This document shows positions 468 through 41,076 of a stretch of DNA of 64,000 bases, piece after piece. The position numbers and the translations under genes were made by a program. Every line of letters begins with the position of its first letter. Position 1 is the stretch's first letter. Under the pieces are notes generated by a model. That model saw only the letters and a program-made list of their open reading frames with translations, made no database searches and was not told where the DNA came from. Location: positions 1-64,000 of the forward strand of contig OMXV01000003.1 in the NCBI GenBank assembly GCA_900315075.1. The letters are read 5' to 3'. Source of the DNA: an uncultured Prevotellaceae bacterium. GTDB taxonomy: Bacteria > Bacteroidota > Bacteroidia > Bacteroidales > Bacteroidaceae.

Positions 468-1775
468 TTAGTCGATTTCTTCGTCTGCTTCATATCCACC
501 CATTTCACGGATGGCATTCTTCAGCATGGTGTGCTGACGATAGAGGTGGTTGACAGCCTCTTCGCCTTTGGTGTAGTCGTGCATCGGACTCTTGAGGAAG
601 AAACTTAGGAAACGCTGTGTGCCATAGCGCCCCGCACGTGCAGCCAAGTCAATCAGCAGACAGAGGTCGAGGCAGACAGGAGCAGCGAGAATGGAGTCTC
701 GGCAAAGGAAGTTGATCTTTATCTGCATGGGATAACCCATCCAACCAACGATGTCGATGTTATCCCACGATTCCTTATTATCATTGCGTGGCGGATAGTA
801 ATTGATACGTACTTTGTGATAGTAATCAGTGTAAAGGTCGGGCTGTTCATCCTCCTTGAGAATAGTCTCAAGAGTAGAGAGCTTCGACACCTCTTTTGTG
901 CGGAAATTCTCTGGCACGTCAAGCACAAGACCATCGCGATTGCCAAGAATATTGGTTGAGAACCAACCGTCCAACCCCAAGCAGCGAGTACCGATAATGG
1001 GTGCAAAACCACTCTTCACCAGAGTCTGACCAGTCTTGAAATCTTTACCTGCAATCGGCATCTTTGTCTTCTCTGCCATCTCCCACATAGCAGGAATGTC
1101 AACAGTGGTATTGGGAGCACCCATCACAAATGGACAACCCTCAGCCAGTGCAGCATAGGCATAGCACATGGATGGGGCGATATGCTCACGGTCGTCGGCT
1201 TTCATGGCTTTCTCAAGAGCTTCAAGCGAATAGTGTACTTCCTCATTGATTGGGACATAGATTTCTGTAGATGCAGCCCACAATACAACAACACGATTGC
1301 AATTCTTGACGGCTTTGAACTTACGGATATCCTCACGGAGCATTTCCACCATCTCCCAGCGATTCTTACATGGTTTTACATTGTCACCATCAAGACGCTT
1401 AGCAAAGTTCTTGTCGAAAGCGGCTGGCATCGGTACGATTTGCTCCAATTCATCCTTAACAGGGTCGATGTCCTCACGTTTTAACACTTCTGCATATACT
1501 GCAGCCTGATAGGCATTCTGAGGATATACATCCCAACAGCCAAATTCAATGTCACTAAGATTGGCTATTGGCACAATCTCATCATACTTCAAATACTTTT
1601 TCTCATCATCACGCCCAATACGGATTTTATCGTACTGAGTCATGGAACCAATGGGTTTTGTCAATCCACGACGTGCCATCAACACACCAGTCATAAACGT
1701 TGTTGCTACAGCACCGTTGCCAACAATGAGAATTCCCAATTTACCCTCTGCGGGCTTTACTGTTGAATTTTTCAT
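468..1775 (-). CDS. ino1: Inositol-3-phosphate synthase (myo-inositol-1-phosphate synthase)
   Basis: Predicted cytoplasmic NAD-dependent enzyme that isomerises glucose 6-phosphate to inositol 3-phosphate, the first step in making inositol. The 435-residue protein has an N-terminal dinucleotide-binding stretch (GILIVGNGAVATTFMTGVL, about residues 13-31). Family segments follow, including the Asn/Thr-rich GAPNTTVDIPA, the catalytic-domain segment IAGKDFKTGQTLVKSG (about 240-256) and the C-terminal domain with NFLCRDSILAAPVCLDL. The length fits the prokaryotic family. In gut Bacteroidetes this enzyme feeds inositol lipid synthesis. In Bacteroides it sits beside a CDP-alcohol phosphotransferase, whereas here a candidate partner operon lies 32 kb away at 33.7-37.1 kb. 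It is transcribed alone, with a 5' leader of about 165 bases after a TAnnTTTG box. Confidence 0.9.
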   Translation of the reverse strand: MKNSTVKPAEGKLGILIVGNGAVATTFMTGVLMARRGLTKPIGSMTQYDKIRIGRDDEKKYLKYDEIVPIANLSDIEFGCWDVYPQNAYQAAVYAEVLKREDIDPVKDELEQIVPMPAAFDKNFAKRLDGDNVKPCKNRWEMVEMLREDIRKFKAVKNCNRVVVLWAASTEIYVPINEEVHYSLEALEKAMKADDREHIAPSMCYAYAALAEGCPFVMGAPNTTVDIPAMWEMAEKTKMPIAGKDFKTGQTLVKSGFAPIIGTRCLGLDGWFSTNILGNRDGLVLDVPENFRTKEVSKLSTLETILKEDEQPDLYTDYYHKVRINYYPPRNDNKESWDNIDIVGWMGYPMQIKINFLCRDSILAAPVCLDLCLLIDLAARAGRYGTQRFLSFFLKSPMHDYTKGEEAVNHLYRQHTMLKNAIREMGGYEADEEID

Positions 1776-1947
1776 TATAATTGTTTAAGATTATAAATAG
1801 AGATTCAAAGATTGATATGTGATGCCTCATTTTATAACAATTGGTTGTAAAAAGTCACGTTGACACTGTCACTTCTTAACCATCAAGCTCCCATAATAGA
1901 GAAATTGTAATATGAAGCATTAAAATGTTACTATCCTTTTTGCCATG

Positions 1948-1955
1948 CAAAGGTA
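1948..1955 (-). promoter_or_regulatory. Bacteroidetes-type -7 box for the inositol-phosphate synthase gene
   Basis: On the minus strand the sequence reads TACCTTTG followed by CA, a good match to the TAnnTTTG -7 element. No clear TTTG -33 element is found 19-21 bases upstream. It lies downstream of the TPR gene's stop codon, so the synthase gene probably has its own promoter. Confidence 0.5.
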
Positions 1956-1997
1956 AACATTTTTTCTAAAAAAGCATAATAAAAGGCATAATATCCT

Positions 1998-2690
1998 TCA
2001 TTTTCTTCCTTTTTTCACACATTTGGCGAATAATTCATCAAGTGCCGGACGTGGAATACCCTTTTTTACTGCAAGTTCCAAATCTTCACGTGCCTCATTT
2101 CTGCGTCCTAATTGCAGCCTAACATCCACACGATTCAGGATATAGTCGGTGTTATCGGGACTCAGCCTCATAGCTTCTCCATAATCATATTCAGCCAGTT
2201 CAAGCATCCCTCTCTCCTGCTCCATTCCTGCTCGCGCAGCGTATGCAACAGCACTATCGGGATATTGCTGCACCAACAGATTGATCATGTCCATTGCCTC
2301 GGTATAATGCATGTCTGTTTGGTTGAGCAATGCCAATCCCAATTGACCATTAAAGTTGCCTGGTACGATTTTCAGCATTCTCTCATAGTCTTGCCGAGCA
2401 TATTTATATCTTTTCTGTTTTTCATTCGTAAATGCCCTATAATATAGTGCGGCTACATTTGAAGGGTCACGCGACAAAACGATGTCATACTCCCTTTGAG
2501 CATATGACCACTGCTCCAGCATTATGTTCCACGATGCTTTTTTGAGCCTTAGGTCATTATCATCTGGGAATTTTTCACATAGTTTTGTCGCTGCCTCCAG
2601 CGAATCCTTCATTTCCTCATAGGTCTGCCCATAGACCTCTGACAAAATGAAGAGCAAGAATAATAATACTATAAATGGTTTGAGGCGCAT
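1998..2690 (-). CDS. Exported tetratricopeptide-repeat protein, last gene of the leu operon
   Basis: The 230-residue protein begins with a signal peptide (MRLKPFIVLLFLLFILSEVYG, then Q) and continues as about five degenerate TPR units (for example residues 68-101 with LYYRAFTNEKQKRYKYARQD and 139-170 with YAARAGMEQERGMLELAEYD). TPR arrays bind protein partners; nothing indicates which. The gene begins only 5 bases after leuB ends, so it is probably co-transcribed with the leucine genes even though it is an exported protein. A functional link to amino acid synthesis is not evident. No hairpin terminator was found after its stop codon. Confidence 0.75.
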   Translation of the reverse strand: MRLKPFIVLLFLLFILSEVYGQTYEEMKDSLEAATKLCEKFPDDNDLRLKKASWNIMLEQWSYAQREYDIVLSRDPSNVAALYYRAFTNEKQKRYKYARQDYERMLKIVPGNFNGQLGLALLNQTDMHYTEAMDMINLLVQQYPDSAVAYAARAGMEQERGMLELAEYDYGEAMRLSPDNTDYILNRVDVRLQLGRRNEAREDLELAVKKGIPRPALDELFAKCVKKGRK

Positions 2691-2695
2691 CTCGT

Positions 2696-3757
2696 TTAGT
2701 TATTCTTTATCCAATTGACAATCCACTCTCCCACTTCCTTGGTACCATATATCGCTCCACCTTCCACTTGTATTTCTGGCGTGCGTACATTGGCATCAAG
2801 ACTGGCATCAACAGCTTTTCTAACCAAGGTCTCCTCTTTTGTCAGTCCAAAATAATTCAACATCATCGCAACCGAGAGAATTTGAGCTAACGGATTAGCA
2901 AGGTTTTTCCCTGCAGCCTGTGGCCATGAACCATGAACCGGTTCAAAAAGGGGTGTATGTTCACCTGTTGAAGCCGATGGCAGCAGTCCCATAGACCCTG
3001 AAATGCAACTGCCCTCGTCGGTAAGAATATCGCCGAATGTATTTTCTGTGACTATTACATCAAAGAAAGTCGGTTCGGCAATCATCCGCATAGCAGCATT
3101 ATCCACAAACATATAGTCCACTTTCACGTCGGGATATTGTGGCTCCATCTCTTTTGCTATCTGTCTCCATAAACGACTTGATGCTAAAATGTTAGCCTTA
3201 TCTACCACAGTCAAGTGATGGTGTCTTCTGCGGGCATAGTCAAATCCCACCTTTAGTATTCTCTCGATTTCAGGACGAGTATATATATTGGTGTCATAGG
3301 CTTTGTCGTTATCCTGGTATTTCTCGCCAAAATACATACCTCCTGTTAATTCGCGGATACAGATAAAATCGGCTCCATCCACCAATTCAGCTCTTAACGG
3401 ACTTTTGTGCAACAAACATTTAAAAGTTTGTACTGGACGAATATTAGCAAACAAGCCTAATTTCTTACGCATAGCAAGTAGTCCTTGCTCTGGACGTACT
3501 TTTGCCGTGGGGTCATTGTCATATTTCAAATCACCAACGGCAGCGAACAACACGGCATCAGCCTCCATACATGTTTGGAATGTTTCATCTGGGAAGGGGT
3601 CACCAACGACATCGATGGCATGTGCACCACAGATGGCTTCTTTGTATTCTACTTCGTGGCCAAATTTCTCTGCAATGGCATCCATCACAGCCACACCTTG
3701 TCGCATAATCTCGGGTCCTATGCCATCACCTGGCAGTACTGCTATTTTCAATTTCAT
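2696..3757 (-). CDS. leuB: 3-isopropylmalate dehydrogenase
   Basis: Oxidatively decarboxylates 3-isopropylmalate to 2-oxoisocaproate with NAD+, the third step of leucine synthesis; in organisms with citramalate synthase it can also act on 3-methylmalate on the way to isoleucine. The 353-residue length is normal. Family signatures are present in order: [10 protein letters not shown] near the N-terminus, the Arg-containing loop [31 protein letters not shown], the catalytic TVVDKANIL, the metal-binding [14 protein letters not shown], and [18 protein letters not shown]. It follows the citramalate-synthase-like gene by 142 bases that hold a repeat stretch, and is followed closely by the TPR gene. 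Confidence 0.96.
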
Positions 3758-3760
3758 AAA

Positions 3761-3902
3761 ATTATAGTTTTTTTAGTTTATAAGTTTTTTAGTTTGTAAG
3801 TTTTAGGAGTTCAGGAGTTGCAGGAGTTCGGACAACACCATTACTGTCATCTTCGATGCAAATAGCTTGTCAACTCGTTTACTTGTCAACTCGTCAACTT
3901 CA
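3761..3902. repeat. Intergenic short-unit repeat tract between the citramalate-synthase-like gene and leuB
   Basis: The gap holds two repeat blocks. At 3804-3831 the unit AGGAGTT recurs three times (TAGGAGTTCAGGAGTTGCAG...). At 3865-3900 the units TTGTCAACTCG and GTCAACTT recur. The 18-base word TTGTCAACTCGTCAACTT at 3883-3900 is found again at 59825-59842. The tract runs into the stop codon of the upstream gene (3900-3902) and probably encodes its last residues. A related tract lies at 6066-6181 in the same operon. Confidence 0.75.
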
Positions 3903-5468
3903 ATCAACTTGTTGCTCCTCAAAGATGTTAAGCATACGGAAGGTAGCTTTAATGGCAGCTTCCGTCTGGTCAGCGTCAAGTCCTCGTGTGCGGAGTAACT
4001 TGTTGCCAAAACGCCATGTGATAACGGTTTGCACCAATGCGTCAGTTCTACCCCCTGGGGGGATGGTTACAGCATAATTAGCAAGGATAGGAAATTCACG
4101 GTTGAGATTCACCCTGTATATTTTTCGTAAAGCTTTCACAAAGGCATCATATTGTCCGTCACCTGTAGAATCAGCGGCATATTGTTGTCCATTGATTTGC
4201 ACCTTAATACTGGCCAAAGGCTTCAATCCATATGATAACGACACCATATAACTGAGCAGTTTCACTTTATCATCGGGAATAGTGTGTTTCAACACATCAT
4301 TGACAATATAAGGTAAATCTTCCTGTGTGACAATTTCCTTTCTATCGCCCAATTCGGTGATACGTTTGGTTACCTTGCTCATCTGTTCAGGAGTTAATTC
4401 CATGCCTAATTCCTGCAAGTTGAGTTCGATATTAGCCTTTCCACTATTCTTGCCAAGGGCATATTCCCGTTTACGACCAAAACGCTCTGGAATTAGTGCA
4501 TTACAATACAGACTATCTTTATTGTCACCATCAGCATGCACACCTGCTACCTGTGTAAAAACATTCTCACCAACAATAGGTTGGTTTGGAGCCACAGCAA
4601 TACCGCTACATTCCTCAACCAATCGACTGACATCACATAATTTCTCCTCGTTGATGCTGGTTCTTGCTTGGAAATGGTCTTTCAGAATTGCCTGAACACT
4701 CGATAGTGGTGCATTTCCACAACGCTCACCCAAGCCATTGACAGTGACATGTATGCCTTTCGCACCACAGAGCACAGCTGCCAAGGAATTTGAAACGGCG
4801 AGATCGTAGTCGTTATGGGCATGGAAATCAAAGTGTACATCGGGATAATGGCGGCGCATTTTCCTGAAGAACTCAATAATTTGCAGCGGATTAGTGATGC
4901 CCAAAGTGTCGGGAAGCATAAACCGTTTGACGGGAGTCTTCACTAATGTGTCCATCATTGCATAGACATAATCAGGCGACTCTATCATTCCATTACTCCA
5001 GTCTTCCAGGTATATGTTTACCCCGATACCAAGTTTTTCGGCATATTCGATGGAGAAAAGTATATCATCAAGATGCTCTTTGACTGTTTTGTTGAGTTGC
5101 TGCGTGCAATGTCTCAACGACCCTTTGGCAAGTAAGTTCATATTCTTACAGCCACATTCATGAATCCAGTCTAAAGACAGCTTATGGTCCACAAATCCTA
5201 ACACCTCCACCTTCTGCAACATGCCTATTTTGCTTGCATATTGGCAAATCATCTTCACAGCATCTTTCTCACCTTCTGAGACACGTGCTGAAGCTACCTC
5301 AATACGATCAACATTAATGTCTTTGATCAACATTCTTGCGATAGACAATTTTTCGTGAGGTAGAAACGACACACCGCTGGTCTGCTCACCATCGCGGAGT
5401 GTGCAGTCCATAATTTCCACATACGGGTGTAAGGCAGGTGTTAGTCGCAGTTGTTCTGGAGTTCCCAT
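3900..5468 (-). CDS. Citramalate synthase-like 2-isopropylmalate synthase paralogue
   Basis: A DRE-TIM metallolyase of the isopropylmalate/homocitrate/citramalate synthase family, 522 residues. Visible motifs: CTLRDGEQTSG (about residues 22-32), the metal-binding FHAHNDYDLAVSN, GLGERCGNAPL, GVHADGDNKDSLY, and a C-terminal regulatory domain with STGDGQYDAFVKAL. It differs clearly from LeuA at 7586-9082. In Bacteroides the gene at this place in the operon is usually annotated as alpha-isopropylmalate/homocitrate synthase, and citramalate synthase (acetyl-CoA plus pyruvate, leading to isoleucine) is the likeliest role; this is inference. The start chosen overlaps leuD by 28 bases in another frame. 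The last residues (QVD) fall in the intergenic repeat. Confidence 0.8.
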   Translation of the reverse strand: MGTPEQLRLTPALHPYVEIMDCTLRDGEQTSGVSFLPHEKLSIARMLIKDINVDRIEVASARVSEGEKDAVKMICQYASKIGMLQKVEVLGFVDHKLSLDWIHECGCKNMNLLAKGSLRHCTQQLNKTVKEHLDDILFSIEYAEKLGIGVNIYLEDWSNGMIESPDYVYAMMDTLVKTPVKRFMLPDTLGITNPLQIIEFFRKMRRHYPDVHFDFHAHNDYDLAVSNSLAAVLCGAKGIHVTVNGLGERCGNAPLSSVQAILKDHFQARTSINEEKLCDVSRLVEECSGIAVAPNQPIVGENVFTQVAGVHADGDNKDSLYCNALIPERFGRKREYALGKNSGKANIELNLQELGMELTPEQMSKVTKRITELGDRKEIVTQEDLPYIVNDVLKHTIPDDKVKLLSYMVSLSYGLKPLASIKVQINGQQYAADSTGDGQYDAFVKALRKIYRVNLNREFPILANYAVTIPPGGRTDALVQTVITWRFGNKLLRTRGLDADQTEAAIKATFRMLNIFEEQQVD

Positions 5469-31032: not shown

Positions 31033-33588
31033 TTAGAATGTAAATTCAAAGGTAAAGCGGATACCGTCTTTCTTAACACCTTTATAACCAGTGTAATTGA
31101 GTCGCCGTACATAGTCAATCTCAAAGAATTTGAAAATATTGTGAATACCTGCATGGAATTCCCAATATGGCTCATTACTTCGCATGAGATGGGTATCGGT
31201 TGGAAACTCGAATAGCATATTGTCATTGGCGTTTTGAGGCAAGAATGGATTGTTCTTATCTGTCAGCCTTCCCATCATACCCTTAAATCCAAATGACTCT
31301 CTCCATTTAAGTTTTTTAATCAGTGGGATTCGATTGAATATTTTACCGTTCAATTCCCATGAAATGTCGGCGTAGGCATACCGGTCGTTGAGGAATTCCA
31401 TATTGTTCATCAGAGAGAATGTTCCTTCCTCTATGACATACGACAAGTTGGCAGGAGGCATAATAAGTAGTGGGAATGGAACTTTGTTCCATTGTGCCCC
31501 TAACTTAAGACGTATGTTCATGCGCCCCCAACTGTTGAGCCATATTCGCTTATAAATGCCAGCCTCAGTATAATTATATCGATATTGTCCACCTAATAGT
31601 CCTTTGAATCCCATGGTATGATTGATGGAAAACTCAGGTGCGTCGAAATTGACCGGCAGACGATGCTGTTTGGTATTGATATATGTTCGGCCTGGACAAT
31701 AGGTGAAGCCAAGCGACATCTCTGTAGTACGTATTTTATTGACAGGTTCACCATCAGCGATGCGATTGAATGCCATCTCACCTGTAGGCTCGTTGCTTTC
31801 ACATTTGAAGTCGATGTTTGTACGGAAGCCCCAGTCAGTTTCCCAGTCAAACTTTAAGTCCTGACGTTGGTAGAAATACATCTGGTTGACTTTCTTCCAA
31901 CGGAATGAAGTGAAGACATTGTCTTTGTCGGTATAGAGGAACTTATCGGATGGCGACATCACATCGTATGTTGATGTGAAAGAGATAGACTTTATCGGGA
32001 ATTCTGTCGGCTGATATTCCTTTTTGTTGAATGAATAGGTGATTTGTGAATTATAATAATGCTTTTTAGTATCACGACCATAGGCGTAATACCCTTTAAA
32101 GAACAAATGAGGGTTGAGGGCAGCCGTGGTTTGTCCACTTAAGCGATATCTGATACCATCAACATAGTTGCTCGAGATAACCGTATTGACAGGTCCGATA
32201 TCAAACTTGCTTTTCGATTTTTGTGTTCCTGTCTCAACAAAATTCTCTATTACAGCCTTTGCAAACCATAGGATATATTTGAAACCCTTAACCTGCTGCA
32301 TATTATGGATAAAGTCATCCATCGACGACTCACTCTTGGTAAGTTCTGTCTGACGTACTTCACTCCAATATGTATCATCACGCATTTTTGCGTTTGCCTC
32401 TGTAAATTTAGTGGCCTTTCCCTTAAACATTTTATTAGGTATCGGGTCGAATGAATAGTCATAGAGATGAGTTGTTCTCAGTACCACCGCTTTGCTAAGG
32501 AACTTAGTGAGCGACATCTCTACCATCATATTGTCGGTGACAAGCACCCATTCGCCATTGTCTAACTGTTTGTATTCTTGCTCTATCCTCATATTTTCGA
32601 CGAAGTTGACATCGCTTCTCTGAGGAATCGTCAGGTTGCATTTTCTGACATGGAGAGAAGAATCTGCCAAGATGAACAATTCACCACGGAAGCCGAAATC
32701 CTGCTGGTTGTTGGGCAGAAACTGCAAATGATAGCAATAGTCATTCTCTACATAGACGGTATCTTCTATATAATAACGATAAAACCTGATAGCATCTTTG
32801 CCGATTGGACTCGTGAAGGGGAATTGTAACAGACGGATTTGGTCATCGTAGATATCAACATCGGTAAAAACATCCTTCAACATGGAATTCAAAATGTTTC
32901 CAGTCTCTATGAGTTGGTTGACTCCTCTGGTGTTTTGTCCTTTGATAATCTCTTTGGTCTTTTTGGGTGCTTTACGATATAAGTGTTGCGTCACCGTCTC
33001 ATCAACAGAGAGAGGGAGAATCAATTTATTATTGAAAGGACATGGTTCAATCTGGTTGACAATCCACCCCATTTTTTTATCTTCAGCCTCTAAGATGTCT
33101 TCCGCTGTGACATCATTAACAGCGAGGGTAATCTTCTGGTAATTATGGTACTGGTAATAGTCGTAATTTTCCAAGTCAGTACGCTTTTTAGCATCGATAA
33201 CTCTCTTCATCAGTTCTACTGCAGGATTATCTTTTCGGCTATATTTGCTTTTTCGCTTCCTTTTAACCACGACTTCACCAAGTGATGTAGATTCAGATTT
33301 CAATTCTATGATAAGATGGTCGGGAGTAGAAGCATTGACAGAGATTTTCTGCGACTTATATCCCAATGCCGTTATAGTCAACGAAAATCCATTGTGACGA
33401 GGTATGATAAATGTGCCATCCTCTTCCGTACCAACAGTGATTTTCTTCGATTTATATGAGATACCGACCGATGAGATGCTGTCGCCAGTGTCTTTATCAA
33501 CAATGACACCAGTCAGCATAGGCGTATTTTCCTGGGCCACACCCCATGATGCCACCATAACCAATAACAAAATTAAATAATATCTCAT
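31033..33588 (-). CDS. DUF5686-type outer-membrane protein with carboxypeptidase-like regulatory domain
   Basis: An 851-residue envelope protein. A signal peptide (MRYYLILLLVMVASWGVAQ) is followed by a CarboxypepD_reg-like beta-sandwich (about 25-105, LTGVIVDKDTGDSISSVGIS and the like), which in Bacteroidetes often precedes outer-membrane barrels. The rest alternates short amphipathic strands and ends in an aromatic residue (GIRFTFEFTF), as expected for a barrel inserted by the BAM complex. The lineage-specific DUF5686 family is my best match; its function is unknown. The ATG at 33588 is preferred to a TTG three bases upstream. It is probably the first gene of a transcript that includes the response regulator. 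Confidence 0.75.
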   Translation of the reverse strand: MRYYLILLLVMVASWGVAQENTPMLTGVIVDKDTGDSISSVGISYKSKKITVGTEEDGTFIIPRHNGFSLTITALGYKSQKISVNASTPDHLIIELKSESTSLGEVVVKRKRKSKYSRKDNPAVELMKRVIDAKKRTDLENYDYYQYHNYQKITLAVNDVTAEDILEAEDKKMGWIVNQIEPCPFNNKLILPLSVDETVTQHLYRKAPKKTKEIIKGQNTRGVNQLIETGNILNSMLKDVFTDVDIYDDQIRLLQFPFTSPIGKDAIRFYRYYIEDTVYVENDYCYHLQFLPNNQQDFGFRGELFILADSSLHVRKCNLTIPQRSDVNFVENMRIEQEYKQLDNGEWVLVTDNMMVEMSLTKFLSKAVVLRTTHLYDYSFDPIPNKMFKGKATKFTEANAKMRDDTYWSEVRQTELTKSESSMDDFIHNMQQVKGFKYILWFAKAVIENFVETGTQKSKSKFDIGPVNTVISSNYVDGIRYRLSGQTTAALNPHLFFKGYYAYGRDTKKHYYNSQITYSFNKKEYQPTEFPIKSISFTSTYDVMSPSDKFLYTDKDNVFTSFRWKKVNQMYFYQRQDLKFDWETDWGFRTNIDFKCESNEPTGEMAFNRIADGEPVNKIRTTEMSLGFTYCPGRTYINTKQHRLPVNFDAPEFSINHTMGFKGLLGGQYRYNYTEAGIYKRIWLNSWGRMNIRLKLGAQWNKVPFPLLIMPPANLSYVIEEGTFSLMNNMEFLNDRYAYADISWELNGKIFNRIPLIKKLKWRESFGFKGMMGRLTDKNNPFLPQNANDNMLFEFPTDTHLMRSNEPYWEFHAGIHNIFKFFEIDYVRRLNYTGYKGVKKDGIRFTFEFTF

Positions 33589-33733
33589 CAAATTTATGAA
33601 GATTAAAGATTGAAAAATAAAAAATGAAGCTCAAAAACTCCTTCTGGCGTTTTTTCCGCAAACGGCAACTTTATAGTCGCTGCAACCATCTTTATATTAA
33701 GGAGAACGTCTCTATTTTCTTCTCTATTATTAT

Positions 33734-33763
33734 CCTAACTCCTAAACTCCTAAAAACCCGGGA
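33734..33763. repeat. Repeat tract (AGGAGTTT unit) running into the HAD gene's 3' end
   Basis: On the minus strand the sequence is GGGTTTTTAGGAGTTTAGGA followed by GTTAGG. The AGGAGTT(T/C)-type units match those at 3804-3831. The last residues of the HAD protein (GFLGV) and its TAG stop codon at 33742-33744 lie inside this tract. Confidence 0.65.
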
Positions 33764-34458
33764 ATCAATTCATTTAGTGATTTTATCACCCTGTCAGGGA
33801 CGTTCTCGTCGTAGGAATCGTCTGTCCATCCCTCACCTTTTATCCAAATAGTCTTACAACCAGCTTTTTGGGCTGCTAAAATGTCCTTTGTGAAACTGTC
33901 GCCTACTACGACCACCTCAGCTGGTTCCATCCCTAATGCTTCCACTCCAAGAGTAAAAATGCGTGGGTCGGGTTTTCTCACCCCAACAACTGCTGATTCT
34001 ATGACACAACCGAAGAGATGAGCAAGGTCAAATTCGTGTAGTACGACTTCAATATTCCCATAAAAATTGCTTACCAACACCAAAGGATATACCTTTGCCA
34101 ATTCTGTCAGCACATCCCTACTCTCCTTGACAGTTTCACATACACTCTGATACAGATTGTGAAGCAGTGTATGAGTCATTTCTTCTGTTTTCACTGGCTT
34201 GCTAAAGAGCAGATGACTATCAAGATATTCCATCTGTAGATGCAATTTTGCGTCCAATGTCTGTTTAAACGTAAACGATGGTTTGATGATAGGATTCTTC
34301 CCTAATGTCCTCTCGGCATACACATACGCATCCCGGAATGACGTTTCGTTCACAGGCACTTGAGCATTCTCATACGCGTGCCAGATTTTTTTTCCCCAAT
34401 GACATCCACGAGTGTCAATGGTTCCTCCATAATCGAAAATACACCCTTTTACCATCAT
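33742..34458 (-). CDS. HAD-superfamily hydrolase, probable phosphatase of the polyol-lipid operon
   Basis: A 238-residue HAD protein with a helical cap between motifs I and II. Motif I is IFDYGGTID (nucleophile Asp9; the second Asp of the usual DxD is Gly11), motif II LVSNF, motif III Lys in VRKPDPRIF and motif IV VGDSFTKD. The substituted second Asp is unusual for a plain phosphatase and could mean a different chemistry. Its ATG overlaps the stop of the CDP-alcohol phosphotransferase gene (TAATG), so translation is coupled and a shared pathway is likely. By analogy with inositol-phosphate lipid pathways it could dephosphorylate the phosphotransferase product; this is inference. The C-terminal residues are encoded by an intergenic repeat. 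Confidence 0.82.
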   Translation of the reverse strand: MMVKGCIFDYGGTIDTRGCHWGKKIWHAYENAQVPVNETSFRDAYVYAERTLGKNPIIKPSFTFKQTLDAKLHLQMEYLDSHLLFSKPVKTEEMTHTLLHNLYQSVCETVKESRDVLTELAKVYPLVLVSNFYGNIEVVLHEFDLAHLFGCVIESAVVGVRKPDPRIFTLGVEALGMEPAEVVVVGDSFTKDILAAQKAGCKTIWIKGEGWTDDSYDENVPDRVIKSLNELIPGFLGV

Positions 34459-35486
34459 TATGAATTGACAAGTGAAGTCTCTGAAGTAGAATTATCGACT
34501 ACCATCTCCTCATTCTCCTGTGAGAAATATTTGGTATAGATTCGTTTACACAAGAATTCATGACTCCTATGCATGTGGACATACATGCCAGTATGGATAA
34601 TGACTTCTACAAGAGGATATAACCATGGTTCATTGAGAAGGCAGGCGACATACAAACAAATAGCGCGTGAATTGAATGTGAGCAGGTTGGTATATTTCAT
34701 AAGGGGACGACTCCCCTCCAGGAACTCGTTTTTCAAGTCATCAGGTAAAGATTCTGGTGATCCATATCTTCGAAGCAGTTCCGCATACAGTTTTTGAAAA
34801 TGTGGCGTGCGCTCTTCCTGCCCTTTGCAGTAGTTGGCATAATTAAAATAAAATGCTTTATAGAAGAGTCTTGACACAAGAGGACCTTCTTTAGGCAGTG
34901 TTTCATAAATCTGCCGTTGCTGGGCATAATTATCTAATTCGCTGCCATCTTTACCTTTAAGGAACCAAAGATGTATCTGTCGATAATAGTCTGAAAGTGA
35001 TGCTTCAGGAATATGTCCAAGTACGCCTGCCGCGAAACAAAGAATCCAAATAGCAATACCCCAATTAATGTCAGTACCTGGCATGGGAACGTTGGTAAGA
35101 CGGATCGAGAGTGCAGTATAAATCACAGCGAAATTCACATCGCCCGAAAAGCCATCAAGTACTCTGCCCACCAACGTTTTCTTACCCGTTAGTCGAGCCA
35201 TCTGTCCATCGGTGGAATCGCCGAAATTAGCCAACATTAATAAAATGACACCTAGGATATTGTGCAGTAAGTCTGGGAAGCCAAACATCACACCTGCAGC
35301 CACACCAAGAAAGATAGACAAGATTGTCACGACATTGGGATGCACATCAAACTTCATCCAAAAGAGTGCGAACATCAGTCCGATAGGTCGTGTAAAATGT
35401 ACATCAAGCCACTCCTCCGTATCGTCTGATTTGAACGACACCTTGAGCATTTCCTTAAAGGTCATATTTTCAGAGTCCGTGTTCAT
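34458..35486 (-). CDS. CDP-alcohol phosphotransferase family membrane enzyme
   Basis: Membrane enzyme joining a CDP-activated alcohol to an acceptor with release of CMP, 342 residues. The family motif lies in NFGDSTDGQMARLTG followed by GRVLDGFSGD. Asp90, Asp93, Gly94, Ala97, Arg98, Gly107 and Asp111 are in place, but the last Asp (Asp116) is one residue later than the usual spacing. About six membrane segments are visible (for example 32-70 and 76-90). A soluble region (about 165-265) is inserted between membrane segments, which most bacterial members lack. Upstream, the ATP-grasp gene ends 41 bases before; downstream the HAD gene is coupled. Confidence 0.87.
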   Translation of the reverse strand: MNTDSENMTFKEMLKVSFKSDDTEEWLDVHFTRPIGLMFALFWMKFDVHPNVVTILSIFLGVAAGVMFGFPDLLHNILGVILLMLANFGDSTDGQMARLTGKKTLVGRVLDGFSGDVNFAVIYTALSIRLTNVPMPGTDINWGIAIWILCFAAGVLGHIPEASLSDYYRQIHLWFLKGKDGSELDNYAQQRQIYETLPKEGPLVSRLFYKAFYFNYANYCKGQEERTPHFQKLYAELLRRYGSPESLPDDLKNEFLEGSRPLMKYTNLLTFNSRAICLYVACLLNEPWLYPLVEVIIHTGMYVHMHRSHEFLCKRIYTKYFSQENEEMVVDNSTSETSLVNS

Positions 35487-35527
35487 TCTTAAATATGTAA
35501 ATTATTCAAATTCCTTATCTTAACAAA

Positions 35528-36349
35528 TTATGAGTAAGGGGTAAGTAACGACGTTATTGCCACTGCTGCATCAAGCCTACAACGTGAAAAACTTGGCCAG
35601 TCGTTGAAATCGATGATTCTATAATCTCCACTTTCCGACACCACACAATCACCGCCATAGACTTTTACATCTGCCAAAGATGAAAGCTGTTCGGCATGGT
35701 GTTGAAGACATACCTGGTCAAAGTCATAGTGGTGAGGCCTGCCATTAATTATTTCGTCGCCAAATTTTGTCATCTCATCATCACCAGGGTAGAAAATACG
35801 GAAAAATCCAGTGCCCTGTACACCATAGAATTTTACCACATCACCCACGACATGTGCCTGAACCACAACATCTTGTATACCCCTTGCTTTGAAACGGGCA
35901 ATCACTTCATCCGCATGAGCTTTGTTTGACGCAAAGACAACATCTTCGTGTGACTGGGCTGCCATGTCAGCCCGTTTCACCCAATAGCCATTGTCGCCCT
36001 TATCATCAGGAATGGGTATCCCAGCATCTCTCATCAAATGTCTCAAAACGTCCCTTCTGCAATTTTCCACACCATATCCACTGTTGATGACCAATGCACC
36101 ATGTTGTTGCTCTGCCTTGAGTACATTCAGTGTCGATGACATTCTACCCATCGAGAGCCACACATCGAAAAGAGGCTTTTTGTCGGAAAATGAATTATAA
36201 TGCGACAACACCTCACTATCTTCACCGATTATGGTCACTTCATGTCCGAAACCTCTGAGGATGGCAGTCACCTCATCGAGAATGGCAGCATCGTTCTCAA
36301 TTGAATTTGGCGAGAAACACTCCTTGCGTCGAACGGCACAAATTCTCAT
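35528..36349 (-). CDS. ATP-grasp-like protein
   Basis: A 273-residue protein with features of an ATP-grasp ligase or kinase: an N-terminal Rossmann-like region (to about 90), an ATP-binding segment (YWVKRADM; VVVQAHVVGDVVKFYGVQG, about 165-183) and a metal-binding end, YRIIDFNDWPSFSRC (about 243-257). ATP-grasp enzymes activate carboxylates or, in one branch, phosphorylate inositol phosphates; which applies here is not determined. The ATG at 36349 is chosen over an in-frame TTG at 36355 because it overlaps the stop of the nucleotidyltransferase gene (ATGA), showing translational coupling. No ATP-grasp enzyme is part of any inositol-lipid route I can name with confidence. Confidence 0.7.
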   Translation of the reverse strand: MRICAVRRKECFSPNSIENDAAILDEVTAILRGFGHEVTIIGEDSEVLSHYNSFSDKKPLFDVWLSMGRMSSTLNVLKAEQQHGALVINSGYGVENCRRDVLRHLMRDAGIPIPDDKGDNGYWVKRADMAAQSHEDVVFASNKAHADEVIARFKARGIQDVVVQAHVVGDVVKFYGVQGTGFFRIFYPGDDEMTKFGDEIINGRPHHYDFDQVCLQHHAEQLSSLADVKVYGGDCVVSESGDYRIIDFNDWPSFSRCRLDAAVAITSLLTPYS

Positions 36350-37077
36350 ACACAACCATTGTTAATAAATGCCTCAGCCTTCTGGATGTCTGCCGCATGG
36401 TCGATGTCAAGCACCTTTGTGAACCGATATCCAAGGAGTCTTTTTCCGTCAACCACTAATGCTCGTTGGAAATTGCGCATACGGCTCTCTCCCCTGCTTA
36501 CACATCTTTCAAGTGTATCGATTGAGCTGGGGGTCAGTCCATAGATGCCTCCAGAAATATATTGACAATGGTGTGCATCATCGTAGAAACCTGTGATGAC
36601 ATCTTCCTCGTCCATTCCTACATATAATGGAGCTTCGTCATCGATAAAATCAGTAATCCCCATCACACCATCTGCAGTTCCCGACATATAGACATTCTGC
36701 AGGGTATAGATGTATGATTTGAATGCTTTTTCATCAAAAATGGTATCTACTGTCGTCAGGCAGAATGGTTCATCCTGCAAGAAATGCCGTAACTCATAAA
36801 AACTATGCATCGAACTTGGCGTTGACTTAACGATATAATGCAGTGGCACCTTCTTTCCGTCGATACCATTTTCTTGTATCTCTGCCAAATGGGATTGCAC
36901 AGCGGGATTTATCTCATTACAAATCACATAAATACCTGTAGCATTGTTGTTCATGAAAATACGTATGAGCCTGTCTATGATGGGCACTCCATTAACCTTT
37001 ACCAATGGCTTGGGCAGTGAAACACCATCTTTTGCTAATCTGGACCCCTCGCCAGCGGCTATAATTGCATATTTCAT
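36346..37077 (-). CDS. Sugar/polyol-phosphate nucleotidyltransferase
   Basis: A 243-residue NTP-transferase of the GT-A-like fold. The N-terminus MKYAIIAAGEGSRLAKDGVS is followed by PKPLVKVNGVPIIDR, the nucleotide and Lys signature, and metal-binding TTVDTIF lies at about residues 107-113. It resembles cytidylyl/inositol-phosphate nucleotidyltransferases in the PKPLVKV-G-xII pattern, so CDP-inositol or CDP-polyol formation is plausible but unproven. An open frame extends to 37194; the ATG at 37077 is chosen because the extension lies upstream of a -7 box at 37123-37130 and is hydrophobic without family resemblance. It is the first gene of the four-gene operon. Confidence 0.83.
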   Translation of the reverse strand: MKYAIIAAGEGSRLAKDGVSLPKPLVKVNGVPIIDRLIRIFMNNNATGIYVICNEINPAVQSHLAEIQENGIDGKKVPLHYIVKSTPSSMHSFYELRHFLQDEPFCLTTVDTIFDEKAFKSYIYTLQNVYMSGTADGVMGITDFIDDEAPLYVGMDEEDVITGFYDDAHHCQYISGGIYGLTPSSIDTLERCVSRGESRMRNFQRALVVDGKRLLGYRFTKVLDIDHAADIQKAEAFINNGCV

Positions 37078-37347: not shown

Positions 37348-38583
37348 ATGGTAATCAACGAAATTCCTGTTTTGCTGCTTACAGGATACTTAGGCAGTGG
37401 CAAAACCACATTATTAAACAGAATTCTTGCAAACAAACAAGGCATTAAGTTTGCCGTCATCGTCAACGACATCGGCGAGGTGAATATCGACGCAGATTTA
37501 ATAGAAAAGGGTGGCATTGTGGGCCAGAAAGACGATAGTCTGGTGGCGCTGCAAAATGGTTGTATTTGCTGTACGCTCAAAATGGACCTGGTGGAACAAC
37601 TACGTGATATCACCCGTATGAAGCGATTCGACTACATTGTCATCGAGGCCAGTGGCATCTGCGAACCAGCCCCTATCGCCCAAACCATCTGTTCGATACC
37701 TGCCATGGGGCCCGAATACGTGAAAGACGGGCTAGTACGCCTCGACTGCATCGTCACCATCGTAGATGCCTTGCGTATGCAAGATGAATTTGGATGTGGT
37801 GGCGACCTCTTACGCCAGAACATTGAAGAGGATGACATTGAGAATCTTGTTATTCAACAGATAGAATTTTGCAATATCGTACTTCTGAATAAGGCCTCGG
37901 AGGTTTCACCCTCGGAGCTGAAAAGAATTGAGGAAATCGTTAAAGCACTTCAACCTCAAGCTGAGATTATCCCTTGCGACTATGGGGATGTGGACCTTAA
38001 CAGAATCATCAACACCCATACCTTTGACTTCAACCAAGTGGCCACTTCTGCGGCATGGATACAAGCAATAGAAGGTGAGCATGGAGATGATGATGATGAT
38101 GATGACGATGACGAACATGAGCATGAACATGAACATGACGGCAATCATCATGAACACCATGACCATGACCATCACCACCATCACCATGACCATCATCATG
38201 AGGGAGGTGAGGTAGAGGAATATGGTATTGGTACATATGTATATTATCGCCGCCAACCAATGGACTTAGGCCGCTTTGATGAGTTTGTAGCTCGTTTTTG
38301 GCCCAAGAATATCATTCGTGCAAAAGGCATCTGCTATTTCTATGATGAACAACAAACATGTTATCTTTTTGAGCAGGCAGGCAAACAAGTATCCATTCGC
38401 AATGCCGGGCAGTGGTACGCTACAATGCCAAAAGATGAATTGGAGCAACTGATGCAACGTGAGCCAGGCTTGCAACGTGACTGGGATGAGCAATATGGCG
38501 ATCGGATGCAAAAAATCGTCTTCATCGGTCAAAAACTAGACAAAAAAGCCATCGCCGAGGCATTAGACAAATGCCTTGTATAA
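37348..38583 (+). CDS. CobW/G3E-family metal-chaperone GTPase with a His/Asp tract
   Basis: A 411-residue P-loop GTPase of the COG0523 group, which insert or traffic metals (Zn, Co or Ni). Walker A is GYLGSGKTT (13-21), the metal-binding loop GCICC (Cys72, Cys74, Cys75), and Walker B/Mg site VIEASGICEP. Between the GTPase and C-terminal CobW_C domains (about 244-290) lies a low-complexity stretch with nine Asp in a row, then many His separated by Glu, Asp and Asn, a probable metal-storage loop. The C-terminal domain continues to about 405. No Zur or other metal regulator is encoded alongside. Confidence 0.9.
   Translation: MVINEIPVLLLTGYLGSGKTTLLNRILANKQGIKFAVIVNDIGEVNIDADLIEKGGIVGQKDDSLVALQNGCICCTLKMDLVEQLRDITRMKRFDYIVIEASGICEPAPIAQTICSIPAMGPEYVKDGLVRLDCIVTIVDALRMQDEFGCGGDLLRQNIEEDDIENLVIQQIEFCNIVLLNKASEVSPSELKRIEEIVKALQPQAEIIPCDYGDVDLNRIINTHTFDFNQVATSAAWIQAIEGEHGDDDDDDDDDEHEHEHEHDGNHHEHHDHDHHHHHHDHHHEGGEVEEYGIGTYVYYRRQPMDLGRFDEFVARFWPKNIIRAKGICYFYDEQQTCYLFEQAGKQVSIRNAGQWYATMPKDELEQLMQREPGLQRDWDEQYGDRMQKIVFIGQKLDKKAIAEALDKCLV
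38085..38206 (+). repeat. Trinucleotide/hexanucleotide repeat encoding the Asp/His tract
   Basis: GAT and GAC codons repeat about nine times (38085-38112). GAACATGAGCAT-type and CAT/CAC/GAC-type units follow to about 38206. The repeats are pure enough to allow slippage, and codon-sized changes would only alter tract length. Confidence 0.75.
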
Positions 38584-38616: not shown

Positions 38617-41076
38617 ATGAAACTAACTGTTAAGTTTTGGCTCACCACCATTCTCTTCTCTTTGAGCATCCTGGAAAGTTATAGCCAGTTGATTATCAAT
38701 GAGATCATGCAATCCAACGTGGATTGTATCACCGACGACTTGAATGAGTTTCCCGATTCATGGGTAGAGCTTTATAACAGTAGTAAATCCATTGTCAATC
38801 TAGGTGAATACAAAATCGGAGTAACCGACCGACCTGAAGATGCATGGCAATTACGAAGTGAGAATGTGGCCTCCGGCAGATACGTCATCATCTATTGTGA
38901 CAAGGAAGCCAATGGCAAGCACACAAACTTTCGCCTTGAATCCGACAAAGGTGGAGCGGTTTATCTATTTCATAATAATGAAGTAGTTGATCAATTGACA
39001 AATATTGCCAAACAACCCGCCCCCAATGTGGCATACGGACGACAAACTGACACCTCACTAAAATGGGGCTATCAAAATGTTCCTACACCAGGTGCTGCCA
39101 ACTGCGGGAAAATTGTCAGCGAGCTACTCGGCGAACCTATTTTTAATGTTCCAGGAAAGGTGGTAAACGACAGGCAAAGTATTGTACTCACCCTCTCATT
39201 ACCAGAGGGTAGTCCCGATGGATCTGTCATTCGTATGACCTACGATGGTAGCGAGCCCACCTCAAACAGCTCTCTCTACACTACCCCCATCACTATCAAT
39301 TCCACACGTACTATACGTGCGAAAATATTTTGCGATGGCTACATCAGTCCACGCTCAACTACTCATTCCTATATCTATTTTACTCGAGATGTCACCCTGC
39401 CTGTAGTCTCTATCGTTACAGACAACAAGTATTTCTACGACAACAAATTCGGCATTTACGTAGACGGCACCTACAACAGTGGAAAGAAAAACTATGAATA
39501 TGATTGGCGTCGCCCAATCAATATAGAGATGTTTGAGAGTGTAGATGAGGAAAGCGTTATCAATCAAGTCTGTGAGACACGTGTTCAGGGTGGTGCATCA
39601 CGAGGCAGCCAATTGAAATCACTCATCATTTATGCAAACAAGCGGTTTGGACAGAAAAGACTGAAATATGAATTTTTCCCTGACCAAAAGCCAGGAATGG
39701 CTAAATTCAAGTCAATTATCCTACGCAATGCTGGCAACGACTTCGACTATCTATATATGCGTGATGCTATCATACAACGCACCATGGCTACTCATACCGA
39801 CCTCGATTGGCAGGCCTGGCGTCCCGTCATTATCTATATCAATGGGACATACAAAGGAATGTTGAACGTGCGCGAACGAAGTACCGACGACTATGTGTGG
39901 GGCAACTACGATGGACTGGAAGACATCGACATGATAGAAAACTGGTATGAGCTGAAAGCTGGCGACAAGGAAAACTATGAACAATTCCAAAATTTCTACA
40001 ACGAGCATGGTCATACTCTCGCCGAATATGCCAACTGGATTGACTGGGAGGAATTCATCAACTTGATGGTCATGAATCTTTACTACAACAATCAGGACTT
40101 TCCAGGAAACAATATCGTCATGTGGAGAAACAGAAGCCAAGATGGCAGATGGCGTTTCGTTGCGAAAGACACTGATTTCGGACTGGGGCTTTATGGTTCT
40201 AATGCCAACTATAACACCATCAAGTGGTTGTATGACCCCAATTACGACAGTAACCGCAACTGGGCCAACCATTATGAGCACACCCGTCTGTTCAGAAGGA
40301 TGATGGAGGACGAGGACTTCAAGCGCGAGTTTATTGACCGCGCATCCATCTATATGGGCGATTTCATGAACAGTCAAGGAACCCGTGAGATATGGGACCC
40401 CATGTACAACATGATTAAGACTGAATATCCCAACCATCGCAAACTTATCAACCAATGGTGGCCCAACTACGACCAAGAGCTATCACAAGCCCGACAATGG
40501 ATCGACAACCGCACAGGCTATTTTTATCAACATCTAAAAGATTATTATAGCCTTGGTACCATAACTCCCATGGTTATCAATAATAACCTGACCAACGACG
40601 AATTACAAAACGTGGACATCAGATTCAATGGCATCAAACTGTCACGAGGGAAATTCGATGGAAAATTCTATGCAAATCGCAAGGTGACCCTCCAAGGCAT
40701 ACCTGTCAATGGGAAAAAAGTGACAGGATGGTCTATTATTTGCGTCAAAAATAGTGGTACAGACATGAGTACTATCAGCGGTAGTGAATACACCTTTAAT
40801 CTCCCTATATGTAATAAGATGATTATCAATGCCATTATTGGAGAAGAAACAGAAATATGCGAAACCTCTGTATCAAGATCTTGGAAATGGCATAAGGATG
40901 GTGCTCTGGTCACACTCACCGGTATCGTCCCCAACAAAGTCGTTAAAGTATATAACATTGCCGGCCAACTATTGTATCAGACACTGACAGACGGTAGTGA
41001 AACCATCATACATTTACCAGAGAAAGGGATGTTTATCATACAGGCTGATGAGAATCAGGTTAAAATACAAAACTGA
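38617..41076 (+). CDS. CotH-type protein with lamin-tail domain and type IX secretion C-terminal domain
   Basis: An 819-residue secreted protein. A signal peptide (MKLTVKFWLTTILFSLSILE, then SYSQ) is followed by a lamin-tail-like domain (about 25-160, LIINEIMQSNVDC and WVELYNSS). Next come a chitobiase/hexosaminidase-like beta-sandwich (about 170-245, SLPEGSPDGSVIRMTYDGSE) and a CotH kinase-like domain (about 255-620), with GGASRGSQLKSL, MLNVRERSTDDYVWGNYDGL and the metal-site DTDFGLGL. The last 75 residues resemble a type A type IX secretion signal (KVYNIAGQLLYQ, IHLPEKGMFIIQ), so the protein is probably exported across the outer membrane and anchored at the surface. Substrate unknown. The cobW gene ends 33 bases upstream. 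Confidence 0.85.
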   Translation: MKLTVKFWLTTILFSLSILESYSQLIINEIMQSNVDCITDDLNEFPDSWVELYNSSKSIVNLGEYKIGVTDRPEDAWQLRSENVASGRYVIIYCDKEANGKHTNFRLESDKGGAVYLFHNNEVVDQLTNIAKQPAPNVAYGRQTDTSLKWGYQNVPTPGAANCGKIVSELLGEPIFNVPGKVVNDRQSIVLTLSLPEGSPDGSVIRMTYDGSEPTSNSSLYTTPITINSTRTIRAKIFCDGYISPRSTTHSYIYFTRDVTLPVVSIVTDNKYFYDNKFGIYVDGTYNSGKKNYEYDWRRPINIEMFESVDEESVINQVCETRVQGGASRGSQLKSLIIYANKRFGQKRLKYEFFPDQKPGMAKFKSIILRNAGNDFDYLYMRDAIIQRTMATHTDLDWQAWRPVIIYINGTYKGMLNVRERSTDDYVWGNYDGLEDIDMIENWYELKAGDKENYEQFQNFYNEHGHTLAEYANWIDWEEFINLMVMNLYYNNQDFPGNNIVMWRNRSQDGRWRFVAKDTDFGLGLYGSNANYNTIKWLYDPNYDSNRNWANHYEHTRLFRRMMEDEDFKREFIDRASIYMGDFMNSQGTREIWDPMYNMIKTEYPNHRKLINQWWPNYDQELSQARQWIDNRTGYFYQHLKDYYSLGTITPMVINNNLTNDELQNVDIRFNGIKLSRGKFDGKFYANRKVTLQGIPVNGKKVTGWSIICVKNSGTDMSTISGSEYTFNLPICNKMIINAIIGEETEICETSVSRSWKWHKDGALVTLTGIVPNKVVKVYNIAGQLLYQTLTDGSETIIHLPEKGMFIIQADENQVKIQN

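Follow-up and report, generated by a model that had tools for sequence, protein, structure and literature searches.

A stretch of 64,000 nucleotides (hereafter the window; positions 1 to 64,000 of the forward strand of contig OMXV01000003.1, GenBank assembly GCA_900315075.1) from an uncultured Prevotellaceae bacterium carries on its minus strand a compact four-gene operon (33742..37077) encoding a nucleotidyltransferase (NTP), an ATP-grasp enzyme, a CDP-alcohol phosphotransferase (PT) and a HAD-fold enzyme. Across genomes these four genes go together, and the gene for inositol-3-phosphate synthase (MIPS) shows a link to the set. The operon is a member of the alternative inositol-lipid cluster of Heaver et al. 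(2022, PMC9246714), a system of known kind and unproven function. We suppose, with confidence slightly exceeding doubt, that the products of the operon assemble the phosphoinositol head group of a membrane lipid, starting from cytidylyl-activated inositol and with a phosphate relay between the ATP-grasp enzyme, as a putative kinase, and the HAD enzyme. Since the alternative cluster had already been proposed, the novelty is smaller; what is new here is the constancy of the ATP-grasp gene, a sister cassette with an IspD-type enzyme and a set of distant clusters within the phylum.

Organization of the operon

Transcription on the minus strand proceeds, according to open reading frame (ORF) analysis, from NTP (36346..37077, 243 aa, ATG at 37077; PF00483/PF12804), resembling inositol-phosphate cytidylyltransferases, through the ATP-grasp enzyme (35528..36349, 273 aa, ATG at 36349), a putative inositol(-phosphate) kinase recognized by motifs and profile matches, and PT (34458..35486, 342 aa; PF01066, E 3.4e-9) to the HAD enzyme (33742..34458, 238 aa; PF00702, E 6.7e-18). 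The stop codon of NTP overlaps the start of the ATP-grasp gene within ATGA (36349-36346), that of PT overlaps the start of HAD within TAATG (34460-34456), and 41 bases separate the ATP-grasp and PT genes. The gene content, order and both stop-start overlaps given in the initial annotation agree with ORF coordinates and domain calls; its designation of the second protein as ATP-grasp also holds, resting not on Pfam, which returned no match for this protein, but on motifs and profile matches to solved ATP-grasp enzymes. The MIPS gene, likewise pointed out there, lies 32 kb from the operon in the same window (468..1775, minus strand, 435 aa; PF01658, E 3.2e-31) and is the sole PF01658 match in the draft genome (4.5 Mb, 111 contigs, 6.96% contamination). 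After it come, instead of the lipid operon, a TPR gene and the leucine genes for isopropylmalate dehydrogenase and synthase (the whole group at 468-5468); towards the other side the contig ends.

Co-occurrence of the four genes and their link to MIPS

Each gene was searched for in one set of 151 family genomes, that of the window included, with a threshold of E 1e-3 in the case of ATP-grasp and MIPS, 1e-20 in that of PT and 1e-25 in those of HAD and NTP. The complete set of four was found in 90 genomes (78 with and 12 without MIPS) and none of the four in 40 (MIPS alone in 17, none of the five in 23), while PT alone was present in 13 and other partial sets in 8. NTP accompanies the ATP-grasp gene in 92/92 genomes and the reverse is true for 92/95, so that a strong case can be made for the ATP-grasp enzyme as a constant part of the pathway. 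MIPS is encoded in 80/92 genomes having ATP-grasp against 21/59 others (both genes in 80, ATP-grasp only in 12, MIPS only in 21, neither in 38; Fisher 9e-11, a value overstating independence, as genomes of one family are interrelated), which bears out the association with ino1 that the initial annotation had proposed to look for, and in 27 of the 80 genomes having both the two genes are at most 10 kb apart.

Weighing against the inositol reading are 12 of the 92 ATP-grasp genomes, 7 of these with a completeness of 90% or more, where MIPS is not detectable and all four genes are kept. They remained after 13 ATP-grasp genomes lacking a PF01658 match had been searched again with the MIPS protein, giving one positive, which was moved to the MIPS set, and 12 negatives (loci L116-L127). 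Import of inositol by these bacteria was considered and set aside as only a lead: a fucP-like MFS gene, assigned with a score below the family cut-off, is present near the cluster in 5/12 of them, yet L093 and L094 have it next to MIPS as well.

Related loci were collected by a PT search, from which the best 80 of 476 were taken, some of them ending at contig ends; the closest named loci among these 80 are Prevotella-like. All four genes are present in 66/80, in the order of the window in 62 and with ATP-grasp-HAD ahead of NTP-PT in 4, while MIPS is found in 26/80 and a homologue of the neighbouring DUF5686 gene in 58/80. Given this completeness, the shared order and the co-occurrence across genomes, the grouping is more than chance. 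Some neighbours are even joined as single open frames, namely NTP with ATP-grasp in six loci (L010, L012, L024, L083, L090 and L113), PT with HAD in four (L049, L057, L073 and L083) and an LPG-synthase-like protein (LPGS) with HAD in others among those examined. The Phocaeicola loci L093 (P. sartorii) and L094 (P. coprophilus) show the series RlmN, DUF4837, PdxA, NTP, ATP-grasp, PT, LPGS, HAD, MFS, MIPS. A subdivision into two fixed modules, ATP-grasp-HAD-MIPS and NTP-PT, hinted at by L066, L077 and L105, was dropped, because in genome G005 the split runs between PT-HAD-MIPS and NTP-ATP-grasp.

Distant clusters in the phylum

Among 395 genomes drawn from the phylum and searched with the ATP-grasp protein (E 1e-5), 15 were positive, and 11 of these lie outside the family (1 in the same class, 10 sharing only the phylum). 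Twelve distant loci were thus selected by ATP-grasp, whose presence is given by construction, and within the stretches examined they contain NTP, PT and HAD in 12/12 cases, LPGS in 11/12 and MIPS in 10/12. In 8/12 loci a GFO/IDH/MocA enzyme accompanies an aminotransferase (PF00202), and the other four have neither; the best NCBIfam match of the one GFO/IDH/MocA protein tested is inositol 2-dehydrogenase TIGR04380 (E 6.4e-19, below cut-off). MlaE, MlaF and MlaD are encoded in 8/12 distant loci, including 7 of the 8 with dehydrogenase and class III aminotransferase (L197, L198, L201-L206), and the ATP-grasp gene is doubled in 4, all with aminotransferase. The family loci examined yielded homologues of neither the aminotransferase nor the dehydrogenase. 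It is possible that the clusters with both enzymes make an amino-inositol lipid.

The putative cytidylyltransferase and the phosphotransferase

Assignment of NTP depends on the breadth of the profile. With a narrow one (49 close sequences), glucose-1-phosphate cytidylyltransferase ranks first among solved structures, while a broader profile (19 close and 12 distant sequences) places first 4JD0 (E 7.8e-12, profile positions 5-224 of 234), named inositol-1-phosphate cytidylyltransferase of T. maritima in the part of PMC12275187 consulted. The broader profile also matches 2xme (7e-6) and 4mnd (2.8e-5) over nearly the full length, with sugar nucleotidyltransferases in between. The comparison of NTP with enzymes for other substrates, proposed in the initial annotation, thus puts an inositol enzyme first with the broader profile and a sugar-phosphate enzyme first with the narrow one, both comparisons being rankings rather than a tree. 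R13, K23 and D111 of NTP are invariant in 31 sequences, and R16, K26 and D112 are given as critical active-site residues in a comparison with T. maritima IMPCT (PMC12275187, in the part consulted), so that NTP appears to keep the catalytic Arg, Lys and Asp of inositol-phosphate cytidylyltransferases, an equivalence by motif and not residue by residue. Inositol phosphate rather than a sugar phosphate is the predicted substrate, though sugar nucleotidyltransferases rank just behind in the broader search and at the top of the narrow one.

The closest solved relative of PT is AF2299 (E 8.2e-12), followed by inositol-using enzymes and, more weakly, by cholinephosphotransferase and a serine enzyme. 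PT departs from the canonical signature D-x2-D-G-x2-A-R-x8-G-x3-D-x3-D, since the first three Asp are kept and the end reads D111-x4-D116; where AF2299 has its last signature Asp, the printed alignment places a Gly of PT. Among 105 PT sequences (102 distinct, some genomes being represented twice), the x4 spacing of the last Asp is found in 99, Glu takes this place in 4 and Asn in 2, and none is canonical, while 11/12 distant loci have Asn there.

All 13 genomes with PT alone, which at the thresholds used contain no NTP, ATP-grasp, HAD or MIPS, encode an IspD-like cytidylyltransferase adjoining PT or about 0.5 kb away (L128-L133, L136-L142). For the one such protein tested, the models of IspD and of ribitol-5-phosphate cytidylyltransferase both gave matches that stay below cut-off. 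The PT family therefore keeps company with a second, unrelated cytidylyltransferase, and as it pairs with two enzymes of this kind, its donor is probably a CDP-polyol and not CDP-diacylglycerol. The IspD-type cassette may make another polyol lipid.

The ATP-grasp and HAD enzymes

The D234, D247-x-N249 triad of the ATP-grasp enzyme, which we take to be metal ligands, is invariant in 39 sequences. Searched against solved chains, the narrow profile gave 7drm (0.0066) ahead of ITPK chains (0.018 to 0.33); the broader one gave 7drm (9.8e-5), then six sequences of ITPK chains, of which four belong to a single enzyme (3.2e-4 to 3e-3 for the six), and a next match at 0.41. These chains are presumably from plant, human (four of six) and Entamoeba, and 7drm is, we assume, a peptide ligase. 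According to the printed alignments, D-x-N of the family is the same in ITPK, whereas 7drm has E-x-N. The operon's enzyme thus shares with ITPK kinases (PF05770) the ATP-grasp class, the D...D-x-N metal motif and a weak profile match, and differs from them in scoring far below the family cut-off and in remaining unmatched when the search is reversed. Among 66 members, PF05770 turns up more often than any other Pfam family (10/66, best E 0.0093).

Several observations speak against a kinase. The best match, 7drm, spans most of the domain, while the ITPK matches are concentrated in the C-terminal, metal-binding part (about 54-76 of 276 positions; for 1z2n the best stretch is elsewhere, 83-119). 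None of the members exceeds the curated cut-off of PF05770, and among 39 of them this family is only joint first (5/39, best E 0.0048), level with an unrelated one and with RimK-like ligase in 3/39 at a similar best E. The family consensus gave no ATP-grasp match in Pfam, and PF05770 searched against 61 genomes yielded no hits above cut-off and chance-level ones in 9, none at the ATP-grasp locus. The case for an inositol(-phosphate) kinase is accordingly modest and the call weak.

Motif I of the HAD enzyme is D9-Y-G11 (D-Y-G-G-T), devoid of the usual second, acid/base Asp. D9 and G11, as well as K162, D187 and D192, are kept in 71/71 sequences (window included, 70 distinct), and the same D-x-G is found in 12/12 distant loci. 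Loss of the acid/base Asp in the entire set is odd for a phosphatase and counts against the assignment of this role; since some active HAD phosphatases have D-x-G, the motif is compatible with it.

Comparison with known systems

In the parts of Heaver et al. (2022, PMC9246714) consulted, the alternative cluster of B. vulgatus and Prevotella comprises an NTP transferase, a CDP-alcohol phosphotransferase and a HAD protein near MIPS, its function is unconfirmed and the Prevotella/Phocaeicola route is said to remain to be confirmed; P. copri is noted there as a case with MIPS not clustered. The initial annotation was therefore right in recollecting that alternative inositol-lipid clusters had been proposed in this phylum. 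The window conforms to this description, having NTP, PT and HAD together and in the same order and MIPS in the genome 32 kb away. It also shares the DUF5686 neighbour, and the Phocaeicola loci share the LPG-synthase-like one. The DUF5686 and CarboxypepD_reg_2 protein of the window (31033..33591, minus strand; PF18939, E 8.5e-53), encoded downstream of HAD and associated with the cluster, probably corresponds to the BT_1527 homologue named by Heaver et al. The order NTP, ATP-grasp, PT, LPGS, HAD in L093 and L094 fits the published tags RS13095 (NTP), RS13105 (PT) and RS13115 (HAD), and by this numbering the ATP-grasp gene of B. vulgatus would be RS13100; homology to the published proteins is indirect, via these two Phocaeicola loci, B. 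vulgatus itself being outside the loci compared. The text passages on the cluster, figures and supplements aside, do not mention an ATP-grasp gene (PMC9246714), and in the open-access literature we found nothing pairing ATP-grasp with enzymes of this cluster or with inositol lipids.

The di-myo-inositol phosphate pathway of hyperthermophiles (IPCT and DIPP synthase) likewise combines an inositol-phosphate cytidylyltransferase with a CDP-alcohol phosphotransferase, and both NTP (E 4.7e-8) and PT (E 2.4e-4) match NF041135, far below cut-off. The acceptor in that pathway is inositol phosphate, not a lipid, we know of no ATP-grasp partner in it, and PT of the operon differs in its shifted signature.

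The route of B. thetaiotaomicron (BT_1522, 1523, 1525, 1526) resembles the present one in MIPS, a CDP-alcohol phosphotransferase and an inositol sphingolipid as end product, and differs in using CDP-diacylglycerol and a phosphatidylinositol phosphate (PIP) intermediate (PMC9246714, in the parts consulted). For 20 of the 21 genomes with MIPS and without ATP-grasp the MIPS region was examined (the other, G134, at its PT), and a CDP-alcohol ORF with canonical signature was seen near MIPS in 10/20, as expected of the B. thetaiotaomicron route, and not in the other 10, some stretches being short. The genome of the window has four PF01066 matches: PT, one passing the pssA cut-off, one nearest ClsA/PgsA below cut-off and a short fragment. 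A PIP synthase of the B. thetaiotaomicron type was not found beside MIPS, PT being the only match on this contig, where MIPS lies 0.5 kb from the end and one flank is outside the data.

A proposed route and its alternatives

The CDP-inositol lipid route suggested in the initial annotation appears the best-supported reading, given the co-occurrence with MIPS and the proximity of the broader NTP profile to 4JD0. MIPS would make inositol-3-phosphate, the ATP-grasp enzyme, as an ITPK-like kinase, would phosphorylate inositol or inositol-3-phosphate, and NTP would convert the resulting phosphate to CDP-inositol (or CDP-inositol phosphate). PT would then transfer phosphoinositol to a lipid alcohol, in Bacteroidales to dihydroceramide directly rather than to diacylglycerol, and the phosphate in excess would be taken off by the HAD enzyme, acting on inositol-3-phosphate ahead of the kinase or on the lipid once transfer is complete. 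Catalytic steps, order of kinase and HAD, and acceptor are all conjectural. Two orders of the relay can be imagined. By the first, the MIPS product is dephosphorylated by HAD to free inositol, which the kinase phosphorylates anew for activation by NTP; by the second, a bisphosphate arises through the kinase, the phosphorylated head group is loaded by NTP and PT, and HAD then trims the lipid. Inositol dehydrogenases and aminotransferases act on free inositol and its ketone, so the presence of putative ones in distant loci suits the first order, which is poorly compatible with the retention of HAD in all 12 MIPS-less genomes. The second order is favoured by the PT-HAD and LPGS-HAD open frames, and the dehydrogenase does not fit it. 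Both orders are thus consistent with the data, and we make no choice between them.

As to the acceptor, direct loading of ceramide is favoured, since in B. vulgatus, a carrier of the cluster according to PMC9246714, ceramide-phosphoinositol makes up 1% of sphingolipids and diacyl-PI was not detected (PMC10056535). Against it stand thin-layer chromatography bands consistent with phosphoinositol diacylglycerol (PI-DAG) as well as phosphoinositol dihydroceramide (PI-DHC), reported for species without the BT genes in PMC9246714, and the caution in PMC10056535 that other extractions might reveal other lipids. These PI-DAG-consistent bands, together with a PT-HAD fusion in P. veroralis, accompany the scheme put forward by Heaver et al. 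(2022, PMC9246714), where NTP makes CDP-inositol, PT makes PI-diacylglycerol and HAD swaps the head group onto dihydroceramide; on this reading the ATP-grasp gene would be an accessory. The scheme agrees with the PT-HAD open frames observed here. We regard it as unlikely, because the reciprocal presence of ATP-grasp and NTP (92/92 and 92/95) is not that of an accessory, B. vulgatus had no detectable diacyl-PI (PMC10056535) and HAD has no second Asp in motif I.

An equally improbable alternative would be that the ATP-grasp enzyme acts as a ligase attaching an amino acid or another acid to the head group, giving a modified inositol lipid. Its best solved match, extending over most of the domain, is 7drm, presumably a peptide ligase, and the aminotransferase found inside the cluster in 8/12 distant loci could supply the amine; the metal motif is nevertheless the D-x-N of ITPK and not the E-x-N of 7drm, and family loci keep ATP-grasp though those examined yielded no aminotransferase or dehydrogenase homologue. 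Least probable by far is another polyol as head group, with MIPS reflecting shared habitat or lineage: the 12/92 ATP-grasp genomes without detectable MIPS and the pairing of the same PT family with an IspD-like enzyme in 13 genomes would suit it, but MIPS is located within 10 kb in 27/80 genomes and is present in 10/12 distant loci, and the broader NTP profile is nearest to inositol-phosphate cytidylyltransferase.

Neighbouring genes

Upstream of NTP lies a CobW gene (37348-38583) whose product has a stretch rich in His and Asp. It is adjoined by a gene (38617-41076) for a protein of 819 aa that combines CotH kinase, lamin-tail and chitobiase-like domains.

Implications

Taken together and only tentatively, the CDP-inositol route might represent an ancient phosphate-relay pathway of Bacteroidota, in which an ITPK-like kinase and a HAD enzyme with an unusual motif would reposition the phosphate of the MIPS product, yielding CDP-inositol of chosen stereochemistry, and PT would load ceramide directly; in distant genomes an inserted inositol-2-dehydrogenase-like enzyme and an aminotransferase would lead to amino-inositol lipids moved by the linked Mla system, and in other family genomes the swap to an IspD-type enzyme would give another polyol lipid. 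In B. thetaiotaomicron, capsule expression, resistance to peptides and fitness in the gut are all influenced by inositol lipids, as reported in PMC9246714. For the published scheme of the Prevotella and Phocaeicola cluster, the present analysis names a fourth, constantly present enzyme, the ATP-grasp protein, argues that the activated partner is the polyol and gives reasons to doubt HAD as the lipid exchange enzyme, and it predicts new head groups in defined gene sets, an amino-inositol in the clusters with dehydrogenase and aminotransferase and an IspD-activated polyol in the sister cassette.

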